A DNA stretch of 64,000 nt from a virus: positions 62,001 through 126,000 of IMG/VR virus record IMGVR_UViG_3300018022_000003, one strand, 5' to 3'. A program made the translations under genes and the position numbers. The notes under the pieces were generated by a model that had not been told where the DNA came from, did no database searches, and saw only the letters and a list, made by a program, of their open reading frames with translations. How positions within the stretch are numbered: position 1 is the first letter of the stretch; each line of letters opens with the position of its first letter. Shown here piece after piece: positions 4,994-62,057 of the stretch.

Positions 4994-6208
4994 CTACCAG
5001 CTACTACCCTGCCCCAGCCTCGTGTCTGTCACCTGGTCGATGTCGCCCACGTTCGTCTCCTTGTCCATTATCTTGACGGGCAGGGCGCTGTAGTCAACGC
5101 CAGGGGGCGGGGGCGGCACGGTCTGGGTGATAGGCTCAATCCACTGGTGGATGGAGCGCCGTATGTCCCCGATGGACACGAACCAGCTAATCCTCGGGTA
5201 CCAGCGGTTCTCTATCTGTATCTTGCCTCCCCCGTCGTAGTACAGGATGTTCCACTCGCTGCCGTCATGGGCCTGGAATACGGCCCCCGGCAGCATGTAG
5301 GCGAAGAAAATCTCGTCCCCCTCGATAGGGCTTAGGGGGTTGGGGAGCTGCAACGTGCCGGGGTTGGGCTTGAACTGGGCGAAGGTGCTCGTCCGCACGT
5401 CCTCCGGGTCCCCTACCATGGCCTGTAGCCCCTGGTCGGGGTTTGGGTGGTCTTCCTCGCATAGCACCCTGGCCGTCTTGGCCAGCTCGGCCGTCATCTC
5501 CTTGGTATCCATAGCCGTTCCTCTCTTATGGGGCGGATAGTCGCCATTCTTTCCTTCCGCCTCCTGGATTCTCTCGTCCACGGCGTCGTCGTCCAGCGAC
5601 CTCATGGCCCAGTTCTTGTCCTCAAGCCTTATCTCCACCACCTGGCCGGGGGAGGGCCCTCCCCCCTGGGGCACCTTCTTGGGGTCCCCGTCCGTCAGGA
5701 TGCAGGGCAGGGCAAGCTGGAGGCGTGAATGGCTGAAGGCGGCTATGCTGCCCCCCGTCTCCTCGAACACTCTCCTCGCCCTCTCCTGGAGCCAGCGGAC
5801 TATCTTCGTTGCCCGGTCGTAGAACTCCCTGTAGGACCTGCCCCCTGGCGGGGCCTCGTCCATGCTCTGCTGGAGGGCCAGCATCTCCTCCTCGTGGTCC
5901 CGCACGTAGTCCCCGGACCACTCCCCCAGGTCCCAGGGGCGCAGGTTGGGGATGAGGTAGAGGGCGGCCCCGGTGGCCTTGGCCACCTCCCTGGCGGTCT
6001 CGGCCGCCCTGTCCAGGTCGGACGAGTATATCTCCTTCACGTTCAGGCTCTTGAACTTCTTGGCGTCCTCTTTTGCCTCCCTCTTCCCCTCTTCGTCCAG
6101 GGGGATGTTGGCCCATCCCCGGATGCGGCTGTCGAGGGAGTCCCCCGTAGTGCTGTTGTAGGGCGTGTGCCCGTGCCGGCCGAAGTATATGGTGGGCTTC
6201 CCTTCCAT
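4994..6208 (-). CDS. Histidine phosphatase domain fused to an uncharacterised C-terminal domain
   Basis: 404 residues. Residues 5-200 are a histidine phosphatase (phosphoglycerate-mutase-like) domain: the phosphoaccepting RHG is at 11-13, with later acid and second-His motifs (WDLGEW, FSHS) in place. Residues 233-404 are unrelated, Pro- and Trp-rich and probably structural. Met233 (ATG at 5512) is preceded by AGAGAGGAACGGCT, a good ribosome binding site, so a separate 172-residue C-terminal product may also be made. The start at 6208 overlaps the stop of 6208-7521 (TAATG). A longer upstream start exists but lies inside the preceding gene. The substrate is unknown. Confidence 0.78.
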   Translation of the reverse strand: MEGKPTIYFGRHGHTPYNSTTGDSLDSRIRGWANIPLDEEGKREAKEDAKKFKSLNVKEIYSSDLDRAAETAREVAKATGAALYLIPNLRPWDLGEWSGDYVRDHEEEMLALQQSMDEAPPGGRSYREFYDRATKIVRWLQERARRVFEETGGSIAAFSHSRLQLALPCILTDGDPKKVPQGGGPSPGQVVEIRLEDKNWAMRSLDDDAVDERIQEAEGKNGDYPPHKRGTAMDTKEMTAELAKTARVLCEEDHPNPDQGLQAMVGDPEDVRTSTFAQFKPNPGTLQLPNPLSPIEGDEIFFAYMLPGAVFQAHDGSEWNILYYDGGGKIQIENRWYPRISWFVSIGDIRRSIHQWIEPITQTVPPPPPGVDYSALPVKIMDKETNVGDIDQVTDTRLGQGSSW

Positions 6209-7571: not shown

Positions 7572-7608
7572 AGAATCCTGCTGTAACGTGTGTATCCTGG
7601 TGTATAAT
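7572..7608 (+). promoter_or_regulatory. Phage promoter-like element, copy 2 (Ku/ligase operon)
   Basis: AGAATCCT at 7572-7579, ten bases, then GTGTATCCTGGTGTATAAT at 7590-7608, ending in a perfect TATAAT. It sits 21 bases before the Ku start codon and lies in the divergent gap with the minus-strand run. Confidence 0.8.
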
Positions 7609-7628
7609 GTAGGTGGAGGGAAAAGGAC

Positions 7629-8636
7629 ATGCCAAAAGCAAAGCCTACCGTAGCGGACGCCGCCAGCATCGCCAGCCAGCTCAGCGCCGTGCTCAAGCCG
7701 CAGCCCGCCGTCGCCCCGCAGGCCGCAGCCAAGGAGAAGGTCTACGTCAGCAAGGCAACGTGGTCGGGCACCCTTGTCGTCGCCCCCGGCCTTGCCTTCA
7801 AGGCAAAGCTCTACAAGGCCACCAACGACCCCACGGAGGGGTTCAAGTCCAACATGGTACACCAGTGTGCCTGTGCTGACGGCACCACGCAGTACTCGCA
7901 GCTAAGGCAGGGCAGCATGAAGTGCTCCGTGTGCGGCGTCGATGTCCCCAAGGAAAGCATCCAGAAGGGCATCCCCAACGGCGACGGCACCTTCACCGTC
8001 GTCAGCGAGGACGATAAGAAGTCCTGCATGGTCCGCTCCGAGGGAGAGGCGGAAATCCTCCGCTTCGTCCCCCTTACCTCCGTTGACCCCATATACTTCG
8101 ACGGCGCATCCGAGTTCCTCGGCCCCGACAAGGGCACCGAGAAGCACTACGCCATCCTGCGTGAGATGCTGAACAAGGGCCTTGCCGCAGTCGCCATGAA
8201 CGTCCAGCGTGGGCAGGAGTACATGCTGGTCCTCCGCCCCTACGGCACGAGCGGCATCATCGCCAACTACATCCGCAGGGAGCACGAGGTCCGTGCGTGC
8301 GACAAGTTCCCCACGGTCGCCCTGAGCGTCCAGGAGAAGGCGCTTGCCTCCTCCCTTGCCGACGCCCTGACGGGACGGTTCGACACCGACGAGTTCCCCG
8401 ACACCTACGCCAGCAACCTGCGTGGGCTTATCGCCGCCAAACAGGCAGGGACGGCGGCCCCCGTGGTCGAGAAGCAGGCACCCGCCCCCCTGACGGTTGA
8501 CCTGATGGCGGCCCTCCAGGCCTCTATCAACGCCGCCAAGGCAAAGCAGGGCGGGCAGCCCGTCGCCGTCGCCGAGCAGCTTATCGCCGAGAAGGCCGCC
8601 GAGGCCTCCAGCGCCGCCAAGTTCGCCATCAACTAA
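7629..8636 (+). CDS. ku: Ku-family DNA end-binding protein
   Basis: 335 residues; bacterial Ku forms a ring on double-strand DNA ends and recruits a ligase. An Ala/Pro-rich N-terminal extension (1-38) precedes the Ku core (about 42-260). The core has the family's SGTL..P..FKAKLYKAT strand, a Cys cluster (80, 82, 99, 102), and the highly characteristic block around 146-180 reading RFVPL..VDPIYFD followed by PDKGTEKHYAILREML. The C-terminal tail (260-335) is Ala/Lys-rich, like the DNA-binding tails of many bacterial Ku proteins. It is first in its operon, behind promoter copy 2, and ten bases before a DNA ligase gene. This strongly supports an end-joining role, perhaps circularising or repairing phage DNA. 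Confidence 0.93.
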   Translation: MPKAKPTVADAASIASQLSAVLKPQPAVAPQAAAKEKVYVSKATWSGTLVVAPGLAFKAKLYKATNDPTEGFKSNMVHQCACADGTTQYSQLRQGSMKCSVCGVDVPKESIQKGIPNGDGTFTVVSEDDKKSCMVRSEGEAEILRFVPLTSVDPIYFDGASEFLGPDKGTEKHYAILREMLNKGLAAVAMNVQRGQEYMLVLRPYGTSGIIANYIRREHEVRACDKFPTVALSVQEKALASSLADALTGRFDTDEFPDTYASNLRGLIAAKQAGTAAPVVEKQAPAPLTVDLMAALQASINAAKAKQGGQPVAVAEQLIAEKAAEASSAAKFAIN

Positions 8637-8646
8637 GGAGCCGCAG

Positions 8647-9417
8647 ATGAAGGCAGAGCTTCTGACACCGATAGGCATACCGAGGCTGATGGCCCTTGCC
8701 AGGGACGACAACTACGGGTTCCAGCAGAAGCACGACGGGCACCGCACCCTGGTAGAGAAGCACGGCAATGCTATAAGGACCTACAACCGGGAGGGGGAGC
8801 CTACGCACCCCCTCCCCCCCTCCCTGCAAGGCACCCTCCTGGCGAGCGGCATCCCCGACTTCTATATCGACACGGAGCGTGTGGCCAGGCGGCTCATAGT
8901 CCTGGACGTCGTCAGCCTCCTGGGGTCAGACCTGAGGGCCCTGCCCTACAGCAGCCGTGAGCCTATCGCCCACCAGGCGTTCGACTGCCTGGGGCCCGGG
9001 GTAGAGGCCATCGGCACCATCCTGGGGACGGAGGCCAAGCTGGCCTACGTGGAGTACCTCATCAGGACCAAAGCAGAGGGGGTGGTCGTGCGTGACATGC
9101 GGAAACCCTACAGGGAGGGCGACGCCTGCCAGCACTTCAAGCTGAAGTTCGTCAAGGAGTGTGACGCCGTGGTCATAGGCCCCTCCCCTGACGGCAAGGA
9201 CAGCGTCCGCATAGGGCTGTACAGGGGCGACGGTACCCTGCACGAGATATCCGGGGTTAGCCTCAGGAACAAGTTCAGGGTCCAGCCCGGCGACGTCATA
9301 ACGGTGCGCTACCTATGCGCTACCAGGGACCTGCACATACGGGAGCCTCACCTCGTCCGCAAGCGGGACGACAAGAGGGCCTCCGACTGCTGGCTCAGCC
9401 AGCTAACCGAGGAATGA
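8647..9417 (+). CDS. ATP-dependent DNA ligase, compact
   Basis: 256 residues. Adenylation motifs are in order: motif I KHDG with Lys28, a motif III-like DTER with Glu77, motif IV EGVVVRD (144-150) and motif V FKLKF (164-168). A C-terminal OB-like domain (about 175-250) follows. This matches the catalytic core of bacterial LigD/LigC-type ATP ligases without polymerase or nuclease domains. The start follows AAGGAGCCGCAG, ten bases after the Ku stop, so the two are co-transcribed and probably form a minimal non-homologous end-joining pair. Some residues around motif III are degenerate, so activity should be regarded as likely, not certain. Confidence 0.9.
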   Translation: MKAELLTPIGIPRLMALARDDNYGFQQKHDGHRTLVEKHGNAIRTYNREGEPTHPLPPSLQGTLLASGIPDFYIDTERVARRLIVLDVVSLLGSDLRALPYSSREPIAHQAFDCLGPGVEAIGTILGTEAKLAYVEYLIRTKAEGVVVRDMRKPYREGDACQHFKLKFVKECDAVVIGPSPDGKDSVRIGLYRGDGTLHEISGVSLRNKFRVQPGDVITVRYLCATRDLHIREPHLVRKRDDKRASDCWLSQLTEE

Positions 9418-9428
9418 GGGGTAATATC

Positions 9429-9635
9429 ATGGTAGTGGTCAGCCACGGGAGAGCCGAGCTGCTCTCGGAGGCAGAGGAACAGGATATCCTATGGGAGATA
9501 GCCGGGGATGTCCTGGGGCCAGCCTATAGGGAAGCATACAAGAGGCTGTTTACGCTCACGGAGGAGGTCAGGGTGCAGTATATCCCCCCGTTCCGGCATA
9601 TGAGGAGGGCTGTCCATGTTCCTAAAGCTGCTTAA
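9429..9635 (+). CDS. Small protein, 68 aa, unknown
   Basis: Third gene of the Ku operon, with ATG behind GAGGAATGAGGGGTAATATC. Hydrophilic and probably alpha-helical, with no motif recognised. Its end overlaps the start of the next gene by 20 bases, so translation is likely coupled. Confidence 0.55.
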   Translation: MVVVSHGRAELLSEAEEQDILWEIAGDVLGPAYREAYKRLFTLTEEVRVQYIPPFRHMRRAVHVPKAA

Positions 9636-9801
9636 GCGCATGGCGTTCCATGCCGCCGTGGTCATAGGCGGCTCCTGCTCCATCATCCTGCTTGTCCTGA
9701 GGAGGCTTGTCACCTTCCAGCAGGGGGTAGGGCTGGCCATGGTCCTGGGCCTGGTCCTCGGGCTGGCAAGCATGTTCCTTGAGAGGAAAGGGGTTATCTG
9801 A
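9616..9801 (+). CDS. Small membrane protein, 61 aa
   Basis: Two membrane segments (about residues 10-28 and 36-54) joined by a short Arg-containing loop. It starts behind GAGGAGGGCTGTCC inside the previous gene and ends at 9801, overlapping the ATG of the next gene (TGATG). A passenger of the Ku operon; function unknown. Confidence 0.6.
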   Translation: MFLKLLKRMAFHAAVVIGGSCSIILLVLRRLVTFQQGVGLAMVLGLVLGLASMFLERKGVI

Positions 9802-10184
9802 TGGTCTTCGTCTTCGGCAGCAATGAGAAGGGAATCCATGGCGGGGGGGCAGCACGCACCGCCGTGGCCCGCTACGGTGCCGTATGGGGGCAGGGGGAGG
9901 GAAGGCAGGGCAACGCCTACGCCATCCCCACATGCAGCGCCCCGATGCGCTCGGACGGGGACCGGCTTCCCCTCCCCAAGGTCAGGGAGTACGTCCACAG
10001 GTTCGTCCAGTACGCCAAGGGCCACCCCGAGGAGAAGTTCAAGGTCACCCAGGTGGGGTGCGGCCTGGCGGGCCTCGCAGCGGCGGACGTCGCCCCCATG
10101 TTCGAGGACGCCCCCCGGAACTGCTACTTTGACCTGGCATGGGAGGGGTTCCTCCCCCACCATCTATTCTGGGGCACCTACTAG
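9801..10184 (+). CDS. A1S_2505-type phage non-structural protein
   Basis: 127 residues. It opens with FVFGSN, followed by HGGGAA, GEGRQGNAYAIPT and VGCGLAG blocks, the pattern of the widespread phage family often labelled A1S_2505 non-structural protein. The glycine-rich loops recall macro or nucleotide-binding folds, but the activity of the family is not known to me. It is the last gene of the Ku/ligase operon; its stop lies within promoter copy 3. Confidence 0.8.
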   Translation: MVFVFGSNEKGIHGGGAARTAVARYGAVWGQGEGRQGNAYAIPTCSAPMRSDGDRLPLPKVREYVHRFVQYAKGHPEEKFKVTQVGCGLAGLAAADVAPMFEDAPRNCYFDLAWEGFLPHHLFWGTY

Positions 10185-10219
10185 AATCCCGTCCCATCCT
10201 GTGTATCCTGGTGTATACT
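10183..10219 (+). promoter_or_regulatory. Phage promoter-like element, copy 3
   Basis: AGAATCCC at 10183-10190, ten bases, then GTGTATCCTGGTGTATACT at 10201-10219. It overlaps the end of the preceding gene and lies 20 bases before the next start. Confidence 0.8.
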
Positions 10220-10239
10220 ACAAAAGGAAGGAGAAACCC

Positions 10240-10476
10240 ATGCCATCACCCAGGAAGAGGGTCCCGGTCACCAAGGACGAGAACTTCGGCAATGCCGTCG
10301 CCGAGCTTATGGACACCCTGGAGGCGGTCGGGAAGAAGAGCCAGAGCCTACCCGACGAGCTTCTGGACGAGGTCCATGAGAGGGTCGAGGACCTTACCAT
10401 ACTTATCCAGAAGGCCCTGGTGCATGAGGGCGTCAGGGTGCAGTACCGCAGCGGCCCCACGGAGCCGGGGGACTAG
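10240..10476 (+). CDS. Small protein, 78 aa, unknown
   Basis: Follows promoter copy 3 with the binding site AAAAGGAAGGAG. The first 20 residues are basic, the rest an amphipathic helix rich in Glu, Leu and Val. It is the only gene of its transcription unit before convergent minus-strand genes, and its stop overlaps the end of the histidine phosphatase gene by four bases. Confidence 0.6.
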   Translation: MPSPRKRVPVTKDENFGNAVAELMDTLEAVGKKSQSLPDELLDEVHERVEDLTILIQKALVHEGVRVQYRSGPTEPGD

Positions 10477-11066
10477 GCCCTCATCCAGTCCCTCCTGACC
10501 TCTACCCACTCCCCTGGCTGTATCTCGCTCTCCTCGCTGTACTTGAACATGAAGTCAGGGATGTCCGGCAGCCCGGCGAACAGCCACTCCGTCCCCATCA
10601 TCACGTTCTGGAGATGGGTGCAGACCAGGACATGGCCCTCCTCGGGGGCGTCGTAGATTATCTTCTTTATGTCCTCCGTCAGCCTCTCCAGGAAGGAGTT
10701 CATGGACTCCCCGTCCTTGGGCGCAAGGTCCCTGCCAGCCCCGGTGGCCAGGATGTTCAGGACGTCCCTTATCCCCGCTATCTCCCTGCCGTTCAGGATG
10801 CCGTAGTTGCGGCTCCTCAGCCCCTCCAGCTTGGCCACCTTCAGGTCGTACTCGTGCGCCACGCTGGTGGCGAGGATGGACGCCCTCTCCAACGGGCTGC
10901 TGTACACCTGCTTGATGCAGGAGTAGGCCTCCTTCAGCCTCTTCACGATGATGGGTATCTGGGCGAACCCGTCCGGGGACAGGGGTATGTCCAGCCCTCC
11001 CCGGAGCCTGACCGGCTCCAGGTTGAAGGCCGTCTGCGGGTGGCGGAGGAAGACTATCTTCTTCAA
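10473..11066 (-). CDS. Histidine phosphatase family protein
   Basis: 197 residues, a stand-alone phosphoglycerate-mutase-like domain. The N terminus reads KKIVFLRHPQT, with Pro in place of the usual Gly of RHG (RHP occurs in some members). An SSPLERA motif and a late THLQN segment supply the expected second His. The start is a TTG at 11066, five bases after the preceding gene's stop; no other start codon gives the complete domain, and GAGGGAGC lies about 15 bases upstream. It differs in sequence from the phosphatase domain at 4994-6208. Possible roles are removal of phosphate from a host metabolite or protein. Domain assignment is strong, substrate unknown. Confidence 0.85.
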   Translation of the reverse strand: MKKIVFLRHPQTAFNLEPVRLRGGLDIPLSPDGFAQIPIIVKRLKEAYSCIKQVYSSPLERASILATSVAHEYDLKVAKLEGLRSRNYGILNGREIAGIRDVLNILATGAGRDLAPKDGESMNSFLERLTEDIKKIIYDAPEEGHVLVCTHLQNVMMGTEWLFAGLPDIPDFMFKYSEESEIQPGEWVEVRRDWMRA

Positions 11067-19546: not shown

Positions 19547-19581
19547 AATCCCCCCGCCAATAGTGTATCCCGATGTATACT
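19545..19581 (+). promoter_or_regulatory. Phage promoter-like element, copy 4
   Basis: AGAATCCC at 19545-19552, ten bases, then GTGTATCCCGATGTATACT at 19563-19581. It lies 23 bases before the gene at 19605 and overlaps the stop of the previous gene. Confidence 0.78.
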
Positions 19582-19604
19582 ACCCGTAGGAGGATACACC
19601 CGAT

Positions 19605-40435: not shown

Positions 40436-40473
40436 AGTATACACCGTCCTACACGGAGCAGGCAGGGGATTCT
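40436..40473 (-). promoter_or_regulatory. Phage promoter-like element, copy 5
   Basis: On the minus strand AGAATCCC (40473-40466), 11 bases, then GTGTAGGACGGTGTATACT (40454-40436). It is followed within seven bases by a start codon. Confidence 0.78.
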
Positions 40474-45056: not shown

Positions 45057-45076
45057 GGGTAATCCCTCCCGCTACT

Positions 45077-45114
45077 ACTATACACCAGGATACACAGGGC
45101 GCTGGCGGGATTCT
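45077..45114 (-). promoter_or_regulatory. Phage promoter-like element, copy 9
   Basis: Minus strand: AGAATCCC (45114-45107), 11 bases, then GTGTATCCTGGTGTATAGT (45095-45077). It lies inside the end of the gene at 45078-45299. Confidence 0.75.
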
Positions 45115-52562: not shown

Positions 52563-52949
52563 ATGATTATAAAGCACTTGACAGCACTCGACACCAAGGC
52601 GGCCGCCGATGGCACCTGGACCTGGGTAGGCAACTGGTCGGCCATGTCCGTCCATATCGTAGGGCTGGAGGGGGACGTCTGGGTGGAGGTCTCGAACGAC
52701 CCGGCCGCCGACCCGGCCCGCTATGCCAGCCCCCCCACCATACCGGAGGGGTGCGACATCACCGGCAACCTCACCTCCGGCGGCTCCCCCCCGGCCATCG
52801 TCGAGGAGGTCAGCATCGCCTACAGCCGGGACGGCACGCAGGTCATGGTCAGCCCCTCTGCCCTGGTATGGAAGTGGCTCCGTGTGTGCAAGAGCGGGGG
52901 GGGCGCTACCGATACCGTCGCCTACCTGATGGGCCAGGTGGAGGCCTAG
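52563..52949 (+). CDS. Possible beta-sandwich virion protein, 128 aa
   Basis: ATG behind AGGGGAGAGCAG. Beta-rich, Trp/Val-heavy, with a WNWV-like N-terminal strand and a SIAYSRDGTQVMV centre. Typical of small decoration or fibre-tip proteins. Assignment by composition only. Confidence 0.55.
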   Translation: MIIKHLTALDTKAAADGTWTWVGNWSAMSVHIVGLEGDVWVEVSNDPAADPARYASPPTIPEGCDITGNLTSGGSPPAIVEEVSIAYSRDGTQVMVSPSALVWKWLRVCKSGGGATDTVAYLMGQVEA

Positions 52950-53788
52950 CCCGTGAAGGGGTGCATGGCGCACTCCAGGAACCGCAGGTAGTCCTCCCGC
53001 AGCCTCGGGGCACCTACCGGCTCCGGCCTTCCCAGGGCGGCAGGCGGCAGGCCCCCTTCCCTCCCTACCACCTTGACTCCTACCTCGCCGAGGATGCTGG
53101 TACGGTCGTCGTCCGGGCCGACGTACACGACCGGCGTCCCGAACGCCACGCAGGGTAGGGCCGCATGCAGGCGGGACGTGAACACCAGCTCCGCCCTGCG
53201 GTACCGTGCGAGGAGGCCGTAGGCCTCCCTGTACTGCCCTGCCACCGTCTCCTCGCTGGCCTCCTCGTAGGAGAAGGGGGGGAGGGTATGGGACACGGCG
53301 ACGGCGTCCCCGTAGGCCCCGGACACCGCCCTGTAGACCTCCTCCCCCGTGTCAACGCAGAACACCCCCTCCCTCTTCCCCTGGTACGGCGGCAGGGTAA
53401 GGGTGGCGCACCCCACCAGGACGGAGGGGAGGCCGTGCCTGCGGAGGAACCCCTCCGTGGCCGGGTCCCTGCACCCGACTATGCCGCAGGGCCTTACCGC
53501 CTCGGCCGTCTCCGTGGTCCGGCAGAAGGGGGCTATATGGATGCCCACGTACCTGACGTCACGGAACCAGTCCCTCCTGGGCATGCCGTAGAACGCCATC
53601 CACCCGTTCGCCAGCAGGACCAGGTCCCCCTGCTCCGTCAGGTGGTCCCGTGGCACGAGCCTCCGTGGGGCCACGTGCTGGAGCAGGGCAAGGGTCTGGA
53701 TATGGTCCCCCAGGTTGTGGTTGAAGTACGAGAGCACGCAGAAGGGCGAGTCGTCGTCCAGGGCCATCAGTTCTTCGAGGCTTTTCAT
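52946..53788 (-). CDS. Polysaccharide pyruvyl transferase family protein
   Basis: 280 residues. The N-terminal NHNLGDHIQTLAL segment and the C-terminal TSRLHAALPCVAFGTPVVYVG block are hallmark motifs of pyruvyl transferases (CsaB/WcaK type), which add pyruvate ketals to surface sugars. An intact second domain and VGCRDPATEGFLRRHG are also present. It is the last gene of the glycan cluster. Start at 53788; the binding site GGGCGGG is weak. Confidence 0.83.
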   Translation of the reverse strand: MKSLEELMALDDDSPFCVLSYFNHNLGDHIQTLALLQHVAPRRLVPRDHLTEQGDLVLLANGWMAFYGMPRRDWFRDVRYVGIHIAPFCRTTETAEAVRPCGIVGCRDPATEGFLRRHGLPSVLVGCATLTLPPYQGKREGVFCVDTGEEVYRAVSGAYGDAVAVSHTLPPFSYEEASEETVAGQYREAYGLLARYRRAELVFTSRLHAALPCVAFGTPVVYVGPDDDRTSILGEVGVKVVGREGGLPPAALGRPEPVGAPRLREDYLRFLECAMHPFTG

Positions 53789-53899
53789 CTACCCGCCCCT
53801 TTCTTAGAGGTCCCCGGTGCCCATCCAAGAGGGGGGCTTTAGCTCCCCTGGGCCACGAGCCATAGGGACTGCCACTGAACTGGCTCCCGCACCGTGGCA

Positions 53900-53942
53900 G
53901 GGGAGGAGGGGCCGGGACCGGGGAAAGTCGGTCCTCCTCCCC
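53900..53942 (-). terminator. Large hairpin ending the glycosyltransferase gene
   Basis: GGGGAGGA (53900-53907) pairs with TCCTCCCC (53935-53942), and inside it GGACCG (53915-53920) with CGGTCC (53929-53934). It begins four bases after the stop of the gene at 53946. The rest of the gap to 53789 holds nothing recognisable. Confidence 0.68.
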
Positions 53943-53945
53943 AAC

Positions 53946-55643
53946 TTACCTCACCAGGAACAGCACCTTCTTGCCCTGCGGCGTATCTACCACCTCCTCC
54001 AGGTGCTCCGGCATCGTCTTGCGTAGCTGCATATGGTAGGACGACCCCATAGGGCATACCGCTGCCACCCTGAACCCCCTGGATACCGCATGGTTGACCT
54101 TGTTCCCCAGTATGGTGCTCTGCCAGTCCGACCTCGGCGGGGGGGCAGGAGGGCGCTGCGGCACGGGGCGCTGGGGGATAGTGGGGCGCTGGGCTGGCGG
54201 CCGCTGGACCTGCACGGGGCGCTGGGGCCCGGGGACGGGCATGATTATCGGGACTGGCCGGGGCGGCACGGCCGGGGGCCTGGGCGGGAAGGGCTTCCTC
54301 CCCGTCAGCATGTCGTGGCACTCCTCCATGTCCCCGGCGCTCGGGAGCTGTGTCACCACCACCGTATCCTTGCTGATTATCTTCTGGAAGGGGACCTGGT
54401 TCCTGTGCGGGTCGAGGAACGGGGGGATAAGGTACCCAGGGAGGGGCTTCAGCCTTATGCCCGCCTTCCCTAGCACCTGCCCTACCCACCTGTCCTCCGC
54501 CCAGTCCCCGTAGAAGGGGGCGTCGGCCACCATCCCCATCGCCTTCCTGGAGAGCCAGTATGCCCCGCCGCTGGCGTAGTCGTACCTGATGGTCCCGTTG
54601 GGCAGCGGCGGGATTCCCATCGCCACGCTGCCGCAGTCGTTCCTGGGCAGGAACAGCCCGGCATAGTCCTCCCTCGGCACCGCCAGGTTGGCGACGTTCA
54701 CGTAGCAGTCGTCGTCCGTCTTCATCATGCTGTCGTAGCCCTTCCCCAGCGCCCACCCGCACAGGGCCTTGGTCTTGAGCGGCAGGGACAGGTAGTCGTC
54801 CGGTACCCCCAGCTTCTCCCCGTCGAAGGCCACGACGTCGTAGCCCGCCGCCTCGGCGGCCGGCACCCACGTCTTCCTCTGTATGGCGAGCCTCTCCCTG
54901 TACCTCGGCTGGCCGCAGGTCACGATGGCTATGAGGGCGTTCTTGCGTGCCTTCCACCTTGCCTGGTCGGGCTTCTCCAGGTGCTTTATCTTCGGGGAGA
55001 AGGCGGCAGGGCTTACGGTCATCCAGCGCTCCGGGTGCCTTATGGCCCTGGGGTCCGGGTAGGCGTATGCGGGGGTCAGGGCCCTTGCCGGGGGATGGTC
55101 CAGGAGGTAGCGGTTGAGGTGCGACTCGTCGTGCCATACCGCCGTTATGCCCTTGGCCTTGTCGGCGTCTATGCTCGCCGCCAGCACCCTGCACATCTCC
55201 AGGAAGGGGTCTGTCCTCCCCCCTTGCAGGCACCCCTGGTAGTAGGCGGGGTCCCCCTCCACATAGGCCGTGGACTCCCTCCTCCTCTCGAAGGTCCCTG
55301 GGTACCCTGGGTGGATGACGGCCGTTATGCCGTCCGAGAAAAGCTCCTCCTCCGTCACCCTCTGGCATGCCAGCATGTCCACGTCCAGGTACAGGAGGTG
55401 CTCGTAGCCCCGCAGCGCCTCCTCCTGCGACAGGAAGGCATGGTAGCGCATCAGGGAGGCCCCCGGCCACCCCAGGTCCGCCCAGGGGGCCTTCGTGACG
55501 CCCCCGAACTCCTCCTCGCTGTCCGTGAACAGGATGACGTCGTGGGGGGGGAAGTTCTCCCTCAGGGAGGCCACGAGGGGGGCCACGAACTTGGTGTACC
55601 TCTCTCCCCCGGTCGCAATCAGCAGTATCGCCAGCTTATGCAT
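53946..55643 (-). CDS. Two-domain glycosyltransferase (GT6-like plus GT31-like)
   Basis: 565 residues. Residues 1-225 resemble family 6 (ABO/alpha-1,3) transferases: YLDVDM with DVD at 87-89 and a WHDESHLNRYLL block near 170-180. Residues 235-440 resemble family 31 beta-1,3-transferases: RLAIQRKTW, a metal-binding KTDDD at 308-312 and EDRWVGQ. A long Pro/Arg linker (about 450-510) leads to a 60-residue end. Two transferases in one chain could add two sugars in succession. It overlaps the methyltransferase gene by eight bases. Confidence 0.8.
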   Translation of the reverse strand: MHKLAILLIATGGERYTKFVAPLVASLRENFPPHDVILFTDSEEEFGGVTKAPWADLGWPGASLMRYHAFLSQEEALRGYEHLLYLDVDMLACQRVTEEELFSDGITAVIHPGYPGTFERRRESTAYVEGDPAYYQGCLQGGRTDPFLEMCRVLAASIDADKAKGITAVWHDESHLNRYLLDHPPARALTPAYAYPDPRAIRHPERWMTVSPAAFSPKIKHLEKPDQARWKARKNALIAIVTCGQPRYRERLAIQRKTWVPAAEAAGYDVVAFDGEKLGVPDDYLSLPLKTKALCGWALGKGYDSMMKTDDDCYVNVANLAVPREDYAGLFLPRNDCGSVAMGIPPLPNGTIRYDYASGGAYWLSRKAMGMVADAPFYGDWAEDRWVGQVLGKAGIRLKPLPGYLIPPFLDPHRNQVPFQKIISKDTVVVTQLPSAGDMEECHDMLTGRKPFPPRPPAVPPRPVPIIMPVPGPQRPVQVQRPPAQRPTIPQRPVPQRPPAPPPRSDWQSTILGNKVNHAVSRGFRVAAVCPMGSSYHMQLRKTMPEHLEEVVDTPQGKKVLFLVR

Positions 55644-56199
55644 TTCTCTTCTCCTGGAACGGGCGGTGCGCCCTTGCTATGTCGTCCTGCACGTAGAAGG
55701 ACCAGTCCGGATGGGCGTCCAGCAGCCTCCTCCTTATGTCCTCCACGGGGGGATAGTCCTTCGCCGTGCCGAAGGCCCGCATGTCGTCTATGACGACCAC
55801 GATGTCGTCCCTCCCCCACCCCAGGATGGCGTCCAGCTCCCCCTGGATGGCGCTGTCCTGCGGGCCACGTGCCGTCCTCCCCTCCGACCAGTGGGCGTCC
55901 AGCCAGAACACCGCTGGCCTTCCTATGCCGTGCAGGATGCAGGGCAGGACCACGGCGCTGTCCCCGTGGAAGAGGTGGACGTTGGGGCACCCTGCGAACC
56001 TTTGCAGGCAGAGGCCGTAGAAGAAGTCGGACAGCTCTATGGAGTAGACGTCCCTGAAGAACCACCTGGTGTACTCTATCGTGTCCCCGTCGCAGGAGCC
56101 TGTCTCCACCAGGGTGTCTATGCCCGCCCTGAGGGCGTACTCCACGAGGGTCCACCGCTTGTACTCGCCTGGGGGCGAGGGGTTATGCCATGCTCCCAT
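55636..56199 (-). CDS. SAM-dependent methyltransferase-like protein
   Basis: 187 residues. A Rossmann-type start LVETGSCDGDTIEYT (motif I-like), VYSIELS, LFHGDS and AVFWLDAHW follow the pattern of class I methyltransferases of the FkbM/CmcI type. These methylate sugars, lipids or peptides. Genomic context supports sugar O-methylation. It overlaps the preceding gene by 17 bases. Confidence 0.75.
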   Translation of the reverse strand: MGAWHNPSPPGEYKRWTLVEYALRAGIDTLVETGSCDGDTIEYTRWFFRDVYSIELSDFFYGLCLQRFAGCPNVHLFHGDSAVVLPCILHGIGRPAVFWLDAHWSEGRTARGPQDSAIQGELDAILGWGRDDIVVVIDDMRAFGTAKDYPPVEDIRRRLLDAHPDWSFYVQDDIARAHRPFQEKRNA

Positions 56200-56890
56200 C
56201 TTTCCCCCTCCTGAAGCCCAGCACCCTCTCGGGGTCCAGGCCCTTGCCGTGCCCGAGGTGGGACAGCTCTGCCACCCATGCCCCCATCCCCGTTATGCGG
56301 TGGTAGTTTATGCCGTTCCTCCGCATGATGTCCCCCACCCACCAGTCCTCTGCCCACAGGTCCATGGGGGCGTCCAGCAGCAGCCCTGCGGCGGCGGCGG
56401 TCAGCCAGTAGCCGTGCGCCCCCCAGATGGCCTCGTCGCCTGGGTTGCACGTCCCGGCGTACTGGTGCCCCTCAAAGCCGCTGCCCCTTATGCCCTCCCA
56501 GTCCAGCACGTAGCTGTCGGCCACGAACTGGAGGCAGTGGGTGTACCCCCGCTCTAGCTGGAACCTGGTAATCTCCTTCTTCTTCCACGGGAGGGCGATA
56601 TAGGCGTCGCAGCAGCCCACCTCCACCTCGTCGGGCAGGAGGGGCCTCCCCATCTCCTCCCTGGAGAAGAACCCGTGGAACCTCCTCCCCCTCTCGTCTA
56701 TGAACCCGTGCTTCTTGCAGTCGTCCAGGAAGCGGTCGGTGAGAGGCTCCAGCGGCACCTCCCCCGGCCTGCCCACGAAGAGGAACAGCGGCCAGGGGCA
56801 CCCCCTCCCCCATGTGTCCCTTATCGCCTGGTGTACCCCGGTCATGGCGAACTTCACGCAGGAATGCACTGCTACGAACGGTCTCAGCAC
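56183..56890 (-). CDS. GT31-like glycosyltransferase
   Basis: 235 residues from a GTG at 56890, overlapping the preceding stop. FVAVHSCVK and AIRDTWG lie at the N terminus, a CLQFVADSYV region stands where DxD would be (metal site degenerate), and AEDWWVGDIMRR is near the C terminus. This mirrors the second half of the gene at 53946, so one may have arisen from the other. Likely transfers galactose or N-acetylgalactosamine. The degenerate DxD leaves activity uncertain. Confidence 0.72.
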   Translation of the reverse strand: MLRPFVAVHSCVKFAMTGVHQAIRDTWGRGCPWPLFLFVGRPGEVPLEPLTDRFLDDCKKHGFIDERGRRFHGFFSREEMGRPLLPDEVEVGCCDAYIALPWKKKEITRFQLERGYTHCLQFVADSYVLDWEGIRGSGFEGHQYAGTCNPGDEAIWGAHGYWLTAAAAGLLLDAPMDLWAEDWWVGDIMRRNGINYHRITGMGAWVAELSHLGHGKGLDPERVLGFRRGKDGSMA

Positions 56891-57717
56891 TTTAGCCACC
56901 TCTCCGGCACGATGTCCCCGGTGTCGAGCCTGGCCATCGGCCCCATCCATACGGCGGGGGCCACTACGGTCCTCCCCGCCGCCCAGTCCCCCAGCCATGC
57001 GCCCCACCACGAGAAGGAGCTGTTGGCGACGACGGCGTGCCTGCACAGGGACATCAGCCACAGGTCCTCGTTCTCCCTGCCCGGCATGCCGGAGCCGAAC
57101 AGCCTCCCTCCCGGCCTGTTGTGCCCGACCACCCTGAGGCCCGGGAACGCCTCCCTGCACCACTCCGGCTCGTCCGAGAAGACGAAGAAGCGGGCGTCCT
57201 CCACCCTCTCCCTCACCAGGGCCATGGCGGGGGGGTAGTACCCGGTGTCCCAGAGGTTGCGGTGGTACTCCGCCTGCTTCAGGTAGTCCGTCCTGCGCAC
57301 GTGCAGGAAGGCGCTCCTCCTCCCGGCCGCTGCAATCTCGTCCGCCGCCCTCCTGGAGGCCTCGCTCGGGCTGCGGCACGTGGAGAACCAGGACCTTACC
57401 AGCGGGGGGTCGTCGTAGTACCTCTCCGTCTGCCAGTAGCCGTCGAACAGCACCCCGTCCGGCACCGTGTAGACCTGGGGGTTGAAGGAGAAGGGGTCCT
57501 CGTGGTAGACGCCCGTGCCCGCCCTCCCGCCCGCCCCGAACACCGCCGTGAACTCCACGGGGATGTCGAACACCCCCAGCATGTAGCAGCGCTTGTGGTC
57601 CGAGTCCGCCCCGTCCCTGGCGAAGCACAGCCTCTCCCCCCTCCTCGCCGCCACGGAGCGCCCGAAGGCGTACTGGAACATCTGGTTCCCCAGCCCCCCC
57701 ACCAGCCTTACTATCAC
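56884..57717 (-). CDS. GT11-type alpha-1,2-fucosyltransferase
   Basis: 277 residues. GGLGNQMFQYAFG at the N terminus, FLHVRRTDYL in the middle (HxRRxD motif) and ANSSFSWWGAWL near the end are the three diagnostic GT11 motifs. It adds fucose from GDP-fucose to galactose. GTG at 57717 overlaps the preceding stop. Length equals that of normal bacterial enzymes and key residues are intact. Confidence 0.93.
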   Translation of the reverse strand: MIVRLVGGLGNQMFQYAFGRSVAARRGERLCFARDGADSDHKRCYMLGVFDIPVEFTAVFGAGGRAGTGVYHEDPFSFNPQVYTVPDGVLFDGYWQTERYYDDPPLVRSWFSTCRSPSEASRRAADEIAAAGRRSAFLHVRRTDYLKQAEYHRNLWDTGYYPPAMALVRERVEDARFFVFSDEPEWCREAFPGLRVVGHNRPGGRLFGSGMPGRENEDLWLMSLCRHAVVANSSFSWWGAWLGDWAAGRTVVAPAVWMGPMARLDTGDIVPERWLKC

Positions 57718-58367
57718 AGCAGCGTCCCCCCCGTGGCCCCCTCTACCTCCTCCCACGGCACCTCCACGAAGGAGGGCGAGGGCACCCGCTTGGGGGCGGC
57801 GTTCCTGGGGTGTATGGTGGACACCAGCAGCCCCAGGTCGTTCAGGTCCCTGTGCCTCTCGGGGGGAATCCTGCGCTGGAAGCTGGTGTCCGCCCCCTGC
57901 GGCAGGTCGTCGAACCTGCCGGCCTCCCATACGGAGCGCCTGAAGGCCGGGGCGGCCAGCCACCACCCCTTGGTCATGTTCCTGTACACGAACGCCCGCC
58001 GCTGCCCGTGGAGGTAGTAGTACAGCCTCCCCGTGCCGCAGATGTCTACCCCCGCCTCGTTCAGGGGCGCTGCCTGCCTCGACACCCTGTCCGGGGCGTA
58101 CCAGTCGTCGTCGTCCCATACTATGGCCGCCAGGCCCGTGGAGGACTCCATGGCACGGTTCATCAGCGCCCCGTGCCTGAGCCTGGGCCCGGGCAGCCTT
58201 ATGTACCTTATGCGGGGGTCCTGCGGCAGGAGGTCCTGGATAGGGTCCGAGCCGTTGTCCACTATCACCCACTCCAGGCTGGGATAGTCCTGCGAGAGGA
58301 AGCACCTCAGGCACCGGGGCCAGAACTCCCTGCGGTCCGCCGTTGGGGTGATGCAGGATACGAGCAT
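57714..58367 (-). CDS. GT2-type glycosyltransferase
   Basis: 217 residues. MLVSCITPTADRR start, WVIVDNGSDP and a DDDDWY motif (85-90) are typical of GT-A family 2 enzymes. The length is short for the family but spans the catalytic core. ATG at 58367; the preceding gene ends two bases upstream. Confidence 0.85.
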   Translation of the reverse strand: MLVSCITPTADRREFWPRCLRCFLSQDYPSLEWVIVDNGSDPIQDLLPQDPRIRYIRLPGPRLRHGALMNRAMESSTGLAAIVWDDDDWYAPDRVSRQAAPLNEAGVDICGTGRLYYYLHGQRRAFVYRNMTKGWWLAAPAFRRSVWEAGRFDDLPQGADTSFQRRIPPERHRDLNDLGLLVSTIHPRNAAPKRVPSPSFVEVPWEEVEGATGGTLL

Positions 58368-58369
58368 CG

Positions 58370-58795
58370 CTACCCCCCTGCCCCCCTTCTCCTCCGCTCG
58401 AACGCTTGCAGGTACCCAAGCAGCTCCCTTATGACTATCTGGTTCCCCTGGAAGCACCCGACTCCTGCCTTGCACCTGGAGCACAGCAGGCCCCTTACCT
58501 CCCGAGTAGCGGGGTCGTGGTCCACGTGCGACGCCCTGCGGTCTCCGTGGGGGATAGGCTCGTGGCATACGGCGCACCTCCTCCTCTGCGCCTCCCAGAG
58601 GGCCAGCAGCTCGCTGTCGGCCATGCCCTGGCGGTACTTCCGGGTATAGGCGGTGCCCTGCTTCCTGGAGCATTCCCGGCAGCGGCTCCTCCTGCCGCTC
58701 GGGTGGTAGGATGACCCTCCGAACCTGCCCAGGTCCAGCCACGCCCGGCATCCGGGGCACCACTTCTCCCTGTCCGTATAGAGGCGCTTCCTCAT
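58370..58795 (-). CDS. HNH endonuclease VII-type protein
   Basis: 141 residues. Two zinc ribbons (CPGC...CREC) are followed by a C-terminal HNH core: CAVC, HVDHD, VRGLLCSRCKAGVGCF. This is the recombination endonuclease VII pattern; T4 gp49 resolves branched DNA before packaging. It heads the glycan operon. ATG at 58795 lacks a good binding site. Confidence 0.85.
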   Translation of the reverse strand: MRKRLYTDREKWCPGCRAWLDLGRFGGSSYHPSGRRSRCRECSRKQGTAYTRKYRQGMADSELLALWEAQRRRCAVCHEPIPHGDRRASHVDHDPATREVRGLLCSRCKAGVGCFQGNQIVIRELLGYLQAFERRRRGAGG

Positions 58796-58926
58796 GCTAA
58801 TGCATCCGGAAGTCAGTTTGCCTTGCAGGGGCACCGGGCAGCTAATCTGGCAGGGGGGGCTGAATGTTCAGTCTACCGGCCCCCTATTTAGAGGCATGCC
58901 CCGCTAGGGCACAGGAGAGGATTGAC
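58796..58926. other. Divergent gap before the virion-like gene
   Basis: 131 bases. An AT-poor patch with CCCCCTATTTAGAGGC (about 58881-58896) could be a second-class promoter for 58927. No AGAATCCC element and no gene seen. Confidence 0.45.
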
Positions 58927-59700
58927 ATGGCACTAAGCATCTTGCAGTTTGCACGCAACTACACCGTATACCCCGAGGTCCCGCTCCAGGTATCCCTTCC
59001 CAGTCCCACGACTGCCAAGAGCCTCCTGGCGCTGCTGGTCTTCGGACACCGCACCAACTATGGCTTCAACATCGGAAGGGAGAGCGCAGAGACAGTGGCC
59101 CCCGTCATCACCGACGACAAGGCCAACACCTGGACCCTCCTTGAGTACATCCTCAACATCGCACAGGACTACGGAACCAGCCCGCCTGTCATCTCTCCTG
59201 ACGCCTCTGGGAACTTCCCGAGCGTCTACCTGTACGTGGCCCCGTCCAGCGGCAGCCTCAAGAGCGGCGGCGTCACTGCCTGGGTCACCGACGCCGGGCT
59301 GAGCAACGCCAGCGTCTCCCCGCCCATAGAGTACGGGAGGCCCGTCTTCGACAGCGGCATCAGGGCGGTCCTCCTGGAGTGCGCAGGCACCACGGGGGCA
59401 CCGGGCACGCAGACGGCGGTGGACGTCCACGGCAACACCATCACCGCCAATGCCAAGCTGGGCTACCAGCTCATCAACCCCAGCAACAACAACGAGCTTA
59501 TCATCGAGGCGGGGGCGCTCATCGACAGCTCCGCCCTGGGCCTGGGCACGGGGGCCAGCTACGTCACCTCCGCCTCCTACCCGGCAGGAAGCTCCTACTG
59601 GCTCGTCCAGCAGACCCTACAGGGGACCAAGGCCAAGAGCGCCGGGTTCTCCAACCCCATAGGGTACATGGGCGCAGCAGCCGCCGTGGCGCTGAGCTAG
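58927..59700 (+). CDS. Putative virion decoration or fibre protein, 257 aa
   Basis: Gly/Ala/Ser/Thr-rich beta protein with no membrane segment; ends in a repeated Ala/Gly stretch. ATG behind CAGGAGAGGATTGAC. Composition matches the head decoration candidate at 27089. It is followed by an 11-bp terminator, suggesting strong expression. Assignment inferred. Confidence 0.6.
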   Translation: MALSILQFARNYTVYPEVPLQVSLPSPTTAKSLLALLVFGHRTNYGFNIGRESAETVAPVITDDKANTWTLLEYILNIAQDYGTSPPVISPDASGNFPSVYLYVAPSSGSLKSGGVTAWVTDAGLSNASVSPPIEYGRPVFDSGIRAVLLECAGTTGAPGTQTAVDVHGNTITANAKLGYQLINPSNNNELIIEAGALIDSSALGLGTGASYVTSASYPAGSSYWLVQQTLQGTKAKSAGFSNPIGYMGAAAAVALS

Positions 59701-59720
59701 GGCCCGGCAAGCATACACGG

Positions 59721-59750
59721 GGAGGGCACGGCCGCAGGACCGTGCCCTCC
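59721..59750 (+). terminator. Perfect 11-bp hairpin after the virion-like gene
   Basis: GGAGGGCACGG (59721-59731) pairs with CCGTGCCCTCC (59740-59750) around eight bases, 21 bases past the stop. The remaining 200 bases to 59953 are AT-richer, with ATACACC and GCATAATATAGG patches that may promote 59954. Confidence 0.75.
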
Positions 59751-59953
59751 TGCTATATCCGTATGTCCCCCCGTGTTTTCTGGTATTTATCCGTATGAGG
59801 CTTGTAGAACGTCTTCCGGATACACTCCCCCTTAATACTAAACATACACCAAAATTACCAACAGGACTGCTAAAATCCTCCTGCATAGGGCATGGCCCCG
59901 GTGCGGCAGCCGGGCATAGGCCAGCATAATATAGGCTTGGCCAGGGAGCTAGG

Positions 59954-60685
59954 ATGGAGTCAACACCCTACATGAACTCGGTGACCTCTGCCCGTGCCCT
60001 CCTCCTGGGGGAGGAAGAGGCGCTGGTAGGTGCCACCACCATAAGCCTGGAGACCCAGCAGGACCTCCAGGAGGACGACGTCTTCACCTACATCCAGGAG
60101 AACTTCGTGTCCTTCATAAGGATGCTGAGGTACCTGTCCCCCGAGGACCAGGACATGCTCCTGTCCTACTACCTCCTGGGGAAGACCCAGACCACGCTCG
60201 CCTCCATATTTAGGAGCACCCAGACGGTCTGCTCCTTCCGCATCAGGATGGCGGTGCGGGTTATCGGGGCCTTCCTGCTCTTCGGCGAGCCTACCGTGGA
60301 GGTGCTGGCCAGGGTGCTGGGCAAGGCCGGGCTGGAGGAATCGCTCAAGGGGGGCCTGTCCAGGGCGGTAATAGAGTATGCGAGGTGCCGCTCCTTCCAG
60401 GAGGTGGCCGACGTCCTGGGGCTGCACCGGCCGGACGTGCGCCGGGCGATGAGCCGGGCGGCACGGGCGCTCATGGGTTCCAAGGACAGCCGGGAGGCCG
60501 CCTTGGCGGCATGGATACACTCCCTGGTGGACAAGTCCAACCCCGTGGGCCCCGGCTACAGCAAGCGGAAGATGCAGAAGGAGGGGCATATCTACCGCAA
60601 GGACCCCGACATCCTGGGGGAGTTCTCCGCCAGGATAGAGGACCCCGCCTTCGACTCCCTGTTCGTTTCGAGGGCAAACAGGTAA
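59954..60685 (+). CDS. Helix-turn-helix protein, possible sigma-like regulator
   Basis: 243 residues. Two candidate HTH segments: YLSPEDQDMLLSYYLLGKTQ..LASIFRST (about 55-85), with the look of sigma region 4, and FQEVADVLGLHRPDVRRAMSRAARAL (about 150-175). A basic Lys/Arg tail follows. It may direct transcription of a promoter class, for example the AGAATCCC elements, though no link is shown. Start follows GGGAGCTAGG; upstream is a GCATAATATAGG patch. Confidence 0.62.
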   Translation: MESTPYMNSVTSARALLLGEEEALVGATTISLETQQDLQEDDVFTYIQENFVSFIRMLRYLSPEDQDMLLSYYLLGKTQTTLASIFRSTQTVCSFRIRMAVRVIGAFLLFGEPTVEVLARVLGKAGLEESLKGGLSRAVIEYARCRSFQEVADVLGLHRPDVRRAMSRAARALMGSKDSREAALAAWIHSLVDKSNPVGPGYSKRKMQKEGHIYRKDPDILGEFSARIEDPAFDSLFVSRANR

Positions 60686-60695
60686 AGGAGGGGCA

Positions 60696-61205
60696 ATGGC
60701 CGCCGTGTGGAAGAGGTCGAGGTCGTCGGGCGGGGCAGATTACTGGGTGTCCAGCTTCTCCCCCAGGCTCGGCCTCAGGGAGAGGATAAGGGGTACCGTG
60801 GAGGGGCCTCTCAAGGCGGTGTGGATAGCCTCCCTGGCCCTCCTCATCGCCGACTCCCTGGACGTGCTGTCCTCCTGGCTCGCCGACAGGTACGTCCCTA
60901 TCTGGCAGGAGGGCAACTTCATCGCCCGCATCCCCCTGGTCCACAGGCTCATGCCTGGGGCGCTGCTCGCCGCCAAGGGGGAGGAGTACGTCCTCCTGGC
61001 CTGCTTCCTGCTCCTCCTCTACAGGGCGCTGCGCACCCGCCTGGACGCCGGTGCCTCCGCCCTCCTGGCGTCCCTGCCCATATGGCTGTCGGCGTGGATG
61101 TCGGCCTATGCTGCCTACGGCAACATATGCTTCACCGTCTCCTGGTTCGGGTGGATGCGGCACTACGAGGTCCTGTACCTGCTGGAGTCGCTCGTCCGGC
61201 GCTAG
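60696..61205 (+). CDS. Multi-pass membrane protein, 169 aa
   Basis: Three or four membrane segments (about 40-60, 85-110, 118-140 and 145-160), basic N terminus, start behind AAAGGAGGGGCA. No family recognised. Confidence 0.6.
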   Translation: MAAVWKRSRSSGGADYWVSSFSPRLGLRERIRGTVEGPLKAVWIASLALLIADSLDVLSSWLADRYVPIWQEGNFIARIPLVHRLMPGALLAAKGEEYVLLACFLLLLYRALRTRLDAGASALLASLPIWLSAWMSAYAAYGNICFTVSWFGWMRHYEVLYLLESLVRR

Positions 61206-61220
61206 CCAGTATTACCCCCT

Positions 61221-62057
61221 ATGGGCCTCAGGCACGGCAGCCTCTTCAGCGGCATCGGGATGATTGACTACGGCCTGGAGCTTGCGGGCTTCAGGACCGC
61301 ATGGCAGGTAGAGATAGACCCCTACTGCCAGGCGGTGCTGCGCAAGCACTGGCCGGGGGTCCCCCTCTACGGGGACGTGAAGGAGTGCGGGAGTGGGAGA
61401 GAGCACGAGCTTGAGCGGGTTGACCTCGTCAGCGGGGGGTTCCCCTGCACAGACATCAGTATCGCCGGTCACGGGCCGGGAATCGGCACCCCCGACAACC
61501 CGACGAAGAGAAGTGGCCTCTGGTACGAGTTCCACCGAATCGTGCGGGAGATGCGCCCTAGGTGGGCAGTCATTGAAAACGTGGCTAGACTCCTGCATAC
61601 GGACGATGGTGCCGGGGTCATCTTTGACATGGAGAAGGAGGGATATGCGTGCTGGCCCTTCCTACTGGGAAGCCATGTCATCGGAGCGCCCCACGAGAGG
61701 CGGAGGGCTTGGATTGTCTGCCGTGACAACCACTCCCACGGCGACTGCGATACTGGTGCAGGAGTGGGACAGGGGCAGCTTCCCGATAACCTCCGGCGGG
61801 CGTTTGAGGAAGCGGTCGAAAAGGAACATCACTGGAAGTGCGAACTGGCCGCAGGAGATGATGGCACGCATGGTCCTCCAGAGGAACCCGAGCCTGCTGC
61901 CTACAGCCGAGGCGTGCGAAGAGTTCATGATGATTCCCACTGGGTGGACCGACTTAGGTGCTGCGGGAACAGCGTCATATGGTTCTTCCCCGCAGTCATC
62001 GGAGCCTACATCGCCCAGGCCGGGGAAGGAGGGGAAGATGGAGACAGAGGAGACTAG
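61221..62057 (+). CDS. DNA cytosine-C5 methyltransferase
   Basis: 278 residues. Motif I SLFSGIGMIDYGLELAGF (8-24), motif IV SGGFPCTDIS with catalytic Cys76, motif VI ENV (119-121), motif VIII GAPHERRRAWIV and C-terminal GNSVIWFFPAVIG (motifs IX/X). Target-recognition part is short (about 170-240). ATG at 61221 is only five bases after a TATTAC box (61210-61215), so leaderless. A second reading frame on the same DNA also looks conserved. Confidence 0.88.
   Translation: MGLRHGSLFSGIGMIDYGLELAGFRTAWQVEIDPYCQAVLRKHWPGVPLYGDVKECGSGREHELERVDLVSGGFPCTDISIAGHGPGIGTPDNPTKRSGLWYEFHRIVREMRPRWAVIENVARLLHTDDGAGVIFDMEKEGYACWPFLLGSHVIGAPHERRRAWIVCRDNHSHGDCDTGAGVGQGQLPDNLRRAFEEAVEKEHHWKCELAAGDDGTHGPPEEPEPAAYSRGVRRVHDDSHWVDRLRCCGNSVIWFFPAVIGAYIAQAGEGGEDGDRGD

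Follow-up and report, generated by a model that had tools for sequence, protein, structure and literature searches.

Phage-encoded Ku proteins have so far been regarded as a means to borrow the LigD of the host. The locus described here raises the question of what such a Ku does when the phage carries a DNA ligase of its own directly behind it. It lies in a stretch of 64,000 nucleotides (the window), bases 62001-126000 of the 127,426-base virus record IMGVR_UViG_3300018022_000003 of IMG/VR (G000), whose source is a soil bacteriophage related to the Acidobacteriota giant phage Tunturi_5, and it consists of two genes:

7629-8636, + strand: Ku, 335 amino acids (profile searches, phmmer, structure prediction)
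8647-9417, + strand: single-domain ATP-dependent DNA ligase, 256 amino acids (adenylation domain plus oligonucleotide-binding (OB) fold with motif VI)

We consider it probable that the two proteins form a private, polymerase-free end-joining module, with rescue of nuclease-cut phage DNA as its likeliest use. In the open-access literature searched, we found no phage Ku described together with a ligase from the same phage.

A Divergent Ku With a LigD-Type C-Terminus

The first-pass annotation of this DNA, made by a model from the letters, had recognized a Ku gene by its VDPIYFD...PDKG and Cys-rich blocks. Both are present (Cys 82 is lost in close relatives), and the identification holds: the protein scores 69.1 bits for the Ku beta-barrel domain of Pfam (PF02735; gathering score 25) and 95.5 bits for phrog_4873 (“Ku-like DNA end binding”), and in phmmer it matches M. 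tuberculosis Ku 8v53 over nearly its full length (E 4e-20). The NCBIfam Ku_bact cut-off of 150 is reached neither by the window protein (131.8) nor by its relatives (120.5 and 128.2), and on this score we regard it as a divergent Ku. Its core shares about 30-38% identity with bacterial Ku, and the closest bacterial Ku proteins in a genome scan, among the matches listed, came mostly from Actinomycetota (30-38%). In the tree, the Ku of the window has a very long branch, and these matches identify neither the donor of the gene nor the host.

Structure prediction, which the first-pass annotation had proposed for both proteins, gave no sign that a Ku fold is absent. The AlphaFold2 model of Ku, built from natural homologues, is of modest confidence (predicted local distance difference test, pLDDT, 68.5), and Foldseek placed the M. 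tuberculosis and B. subtilis Ku structures first (E ~1e-14) at a template modeling (TM) score of only ~0.38 by query length; in this predicted structure, the Ku fold is supported via the E-value and local matches. The protein is laid out as follows:

N-terminus: extension of 40 amino acids
Residues ~42-275: beta-barrel core
Residues 290-307: LigD-type minimal C-terminal motif
C-terminal end: short, non-basic tail

At its C-terminal end, the sequence VDLMAALQASINAAKAK differs very little from the minimal C-terminus of bacterial Ku, a region that recruits LigD and stimulates ligation (PMC9638933, PMC13201618). The ligase-recruiting motif D[LI]x..L..S stands at residues 291-299, as it does in 79 of the 80 bacterial Ku proteins examined, and was seen in none of 5000 shuffled Ku C-termini. 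The phage protein does not have the basic extended tail, which varies among bacteria: its tail comprises 36 residues with a net charge of +1, versus a bacterial median of 71 residues and +13.

A One-Domain Ligase That Is Not a LigD

Adenylation motifs, noted earlier in the ligase, were found again (I, KHDGHR with lysine 28; III, DTE at 75; IV, EGVV at 144; V, KLK at 165), together with motif VI (RKRDDK at 238), and the protein passes the PF01068 cut-off (29.6 bits against 26.2). Its model (pLDDT 79.3) matches the LigD ligase domain 1vs0 first in Foldseek (E 1.3e-13, TM 0.66). Profile searches of the 256 residues returned ligase matches only, with no polymerase or phosphoesterase domain found, and the cut-off of the non-homologous end-joining (NHEJ) ligase equivalog TIGR02779 was not reached (55 versus 227.75 bits). 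In the ligase tree, the window protein joins gp61 of Tunturi_5, a 309-kb myovirus of Acidobacteriota (PMC11924767), and two viral-contig ligases, outside LigD (support for the larger group 97/95), and the approximately unbiased (AU) test speaks against placing it with the LigD ligase domains (p 0.031); the long branches of both the ligase and the Ku trees call for caution on such groupings. Despite its best structural match to a LigD ligase domain, the window ligase is not a LigD.

The gp61-type relatives in the tree bear an extra N-terminal WGR-like domain, and the window ligase does not. This WGR assignment is tentative, drawing on one sub-threshold Pfam match in a single contig (L039; 17.3 bits, cut-off 22) and on similarity by eye. 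WGR-like N-terminal domains were noted on phage ATP ligases at L016 7653-8795, L039 7704-8795 and L040 616-1377, and these may be end-binding ligases.

The two genes are the sole Ku and sole ATP-ligase matches of the record, in which no NAD-dependent (nicotinamide adenine dinucleotide) ligase was found. The earlier suggestion that a private ligase could make the phage independent of host repair is not demonstrated: Ku keeps the LigD-recruiting motif, no LigD-type polymerase gene was found in the 127-kb record, and other repair genes may be missing from view, as this record probably covers only part of the genome.

A Probable Shared and Conserved Transcription Unit

The first-pass annotation had placed the two genes ten bases apart under one phage promoter, and this arrangement is what we see: the gap (8637-8646) is 10 bases on the same strand, the ligase has a GGAG ribosome-binding site ahead of its start, and a conserved promoter-like motif lies upstream of Ku. 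The element and the small open reading frames (ORFs) behind the ligase are:

7573-7611, + strand: promoter-like element, GAATCC box at 7573-7578, then GTGTATCCTGGTGTATAATG with TATAAT at 7603-7608
9429-9635, + strand: possible small ORF of 68 amino acids, from an in-frame ATG inside ORF 9315-9635
9616-9801, + strand: membrane-like ORF of 61 amino acids (53-58% identity in relatives), probably on the same transcript as Ku and ligase
9801-10184, + strand: phrog_2072 protein (family of unknown function), 127 amino acids, probably on the same transcript as Ku and ligase

The motif at 7592-7611, GTATCCTGnTGTATAnTnTA, has five matches in the window with at most 3 mismatches, against 0.02 expected; allowing variants brings the number of sites to seven, and these lie upstream of phage ORFs behind a GAATCC box. 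A generic sigma-70 consensus scan gave no match on the coding strand at the element. It is kept upstream of Ku in two related contigs whose flanking sequence differs (L002 and L004). With one such element upstream of Ku and the next only at 10203-10222, Ku, the ligase and two or three small ORFs probably form one transcript. Across the window, sites with GAATCC followed by GTGTATCCTGGTGTATAcT occur far above chance, at 62-81, 7592-7611, 10203-10222 and 19565-19584 on the + strand and at 40436, 45074-45093 and 45711 on the - strand.

Each of the four related contigs spanning the region has both genes, two divergent variants among them, and a fifth contig, cut within Ku, still has the ligase; gene order nearby is largely the same in these relatives. 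The two divergent variants compared share 83-86% identity with the window in Ku and 87-91% in the ligase, with ratios of nonsynonymous to synonymous substitution (dN/dS) of 0.14-0.33 and 0.20-0.27, respectively, and both genes are under purifying selection.

Ku rings protect DNA ends, and Gam of phage Mu provides a precedent (PMC1378119) for a Ku that would act mainly as an end protector, shielding phage DNA from host exonucleases, with ligation secondary. We hold this to be quite improbable, since a ligase adjoins Ku on what is probably the same transcript and Ku has kept a ligase-recruitment motif that protection alone does not require.

Ku and Ligases in Other Phages

Four Ku queries against 50,697 phage records matched up to 81 mycobacteriophage records and nothing else but a single scaffold that is probably bacterial. 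The Ku of mycobacteriophages Omega and Corndog employs host LigD (PMC7719229), as the first-pass annotation had stated, and a PF01068 ligase was absent from all tested members of mycobacteriophage clusters J and O and from Nebkiss. Among the ligase-carrying phages tested, none had Ku, including Tunturi_5, which has both the gp61-type ATP ligase and an NAD ligase.

In a metagenomic survey, Ku-positive viral contigs from other lineages were checked for ligases, and the recurrence given here is descriptive. In the contigs G022 and G024 (IMG/VR 3300038417_000475 and 3300018015_000425), a ligase gene follows 290 bases after Ku and a sliding clamp comes next, all on one strand; the pairing of Ku with a ligase is thus present in at least one unrelated phage lineage besides that of the window. 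G014 and G021 also carry a one-domain ligase, on the strand of Ku and about 3 kb away from it, and in G020 the distance is 53 kb; no ligase was found in G006/G007, G013, G017, G018, G019 or G023, and a LigD polymerase was not found in any Ku-positive contig searched, including G022/G024, G014 and G021. In the ligase tree, the window ligase stands apart from those of G014, G021 and G022, so that, as far as the ligase is concerned, the pairing has more than one origin; a single origin of Ku among the phages with both genes is not formally rejected (AU p 0.052).

A Ku match from a fecal “Bacteriophage sp.” record (L013) was not counted as phage, its formamidopyrimidine-glycosylase-like and Clp-like neighboring ORFs (by eye) looking bacterial, and an isolate-genome record with Streptomyces-like flanks and with Ku and ligase on opposite strands (L030/G012) was discounted. 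In an unrelated viral contig, Ku, ligase and DNA polymerase processivity factor (sliding clamp) follow in a row (L177 7911-12209).

These comparisons bear on the possibility that the phage Ku brings in the LigD of the host, in the manner of Omega and Corndog, and that the adjoining ligase is a general nick sealer for replication or repair on the shared transcript. The match of residues 291-299 to the motif of bacterial Ku is consistent with such recruitment, as is the grouping of the ligase with gp61-type phage ligases, which occur without Ku; however, Tunturi_5 has an NAD ligase besides gp61, so it is not evident that enzymes of the gp61 type serve as the replicative ligase, and the recurrence of Ku beside a ligase in an unrelated phage also argues against this explanation, which we judge unlikely.

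How the Pair May Work

The shared promoter, the conservation and the independent Ku-ligase pair in another phage lineage speak for a deliberate pairing of Ku and ligase. In the mechanism that we propose, a Ku homodimer would thread onto double-stranded phage DNA ends, protect them, bring them together and deliver to them the phage one-domain ATP ligase, which would seal ends that are blunt or fit each other directly. Most likely this would serve to save phage DNA that host nucleases have cut in the infected cell, and circularization of incoming ends would be a second use. We infer the physical contact of Ku with the ligase, the joining activity, the biological use and the step of infection that is served. 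The LigD ligase domain needs no other part of LigD to be bound and stimulated by a bacterial Ku core with its minimal C-terminus (PMC9638933, PMC13201618), and end joining at Cas9 breaks is supported by T7 ligase 1.3 (PMC11294054).

Several points weigh against a private module of this kind. The minimal C-terminus of Ku is, judged by its residues, of the LigD-recruiting type; the isolated ligase domain of M. tuberculosis joins ends poorly, and wild-type full-length Ku did not stimulate its nick sealing (PMC9638933); only clean ends could be joined, given that no polymerase partner was found; and Tunturi_5 has this type of ligase without Ku, which points to a Ku-independent role of the ligase in at least one phage.

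The module might instead circularize linear phage DNA on its entry when cohesive ends are short or missing; such a use has been proposed for Corndog, which has 4-base 3' ends and Ku (PMC4351075). The terminase match in the window phage is weak, and a Tunturi_5-related myovirus may package redundant ends and circularize by recombination; we think circularization fairly unlikely, and it does not exclude rescue of cut DNA, since the two would be different uses of the same chemistry. A broader idea, offered tentatively and in our view doubtful, is that phages have repeatedly built minimal end-joining machines from Ku and one-domain ligases of different origins, and that here a trans-acquired Ku replaced the end-binding role of the cis WGR-like domain of Tunturi_5-type ligases.

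If the two genes do form a private end-joining module, they would constitute a very small viral end-joining system and could explain how a phage survives when CRISPR or restriction enzymes cut both strands of its DNA; as a natural Ku-dependent ligase-only system, the module would also allow the roles of Ku and of the polymerase domain to be told apart.

Genomic Neighborhood

Window positions 2931-30966 match the structural block of Tunturiibacter phage Tunturi_5 (major head protein 67%, tail sheath 45%, and others), and an Acidobacteriota host is suggested through this kinship alone. The Ku-ligase cassette lies on the strand opposite to the surrounding structural block, flanked by homologues of Tunturi_5 ORF319 and ORF322; Tunturi_5 itself has other genes at this position. 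The cassette looks like an added, self-expressed unit.

Histidine-phosphatase-superfamily genes stand on both sides of the cassette (4994-6208 and 10473-11066, both on the - strand), the former with a fused C-terminal part homologous to Tunturi_5 ORF323. Overlapping genes for VWA-domain (452-1291) and DnaJ-domain (1291-2220) proteins, both on the + strand, lie in a stretch of lower guanine-cytosine content, and a glycosyltransferase-like gene cluster occupies 52946-58367 (- strand), with a GT6/galactosyltransferase at 53946-55643. Just left of the window are a likely NAD+ salvage pair, a NAMPT-type nicotinamide phosphoribosyltransferase and a nucleotidyltransferase-NUDIX protein (record 58280-60785; L159 1280-3785), and a tyrosine recombinase of the phage integrase family (record 60782-61843; L159 3782-4843), unexpected beside a jumbo-phage-like structural block.

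Comparison With Known Systems

The Ku proteins of Omega (cluster J) and Corndog (cluster O) are, like the window Ku, phage-encoded and of bacterial type with a minimal C-terminal motif, but the cluster members tested have no PF01068 ligase and host LigD is reportedly used; moreover, mycobacteriophage Ku nests with that of Mycobacteriaceae, whereas the window Ku does not. Bacterial NHEJ (Ku plus LigD, as in M. tuberculosis and B. subtilis, where the best Foldseek matches lie) likewise combines Ku with an ATP ligase, yet the window ligase, unlike LigD, lacks both the polymerase and the phosphoesterase domain, and the tree places it outside the LigD group.

In Methanocella paludicola, the parts of the NHEJ system are encoded by separate genes. 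Its ligase, a separate polypeptide working with Ku, resembles the phage pair in layout, but the archaeon also has an NHEJ polymerase and phosphoesterase (PMC4797286, PMC8656161), both stand-alone proteins, whereas no LigD-type polymerase was found in the window record. Tunturi_5 gp61 belongs to the ligase group nearest to the window ligase (26% identity), and the two phages have the structural-gene block in common; gp61 differs in its extra N-terminal WGR-like domain (by eye; sub-threshold in the relative L039), and its phage has no Ku. The G022/G024 contigs differ from the window in their ligase lineage, their distant Ku and the sliding clamp as the next recognizable gene, but there, as in the window, a one-domain ligase directly follows Ku on the same strand.
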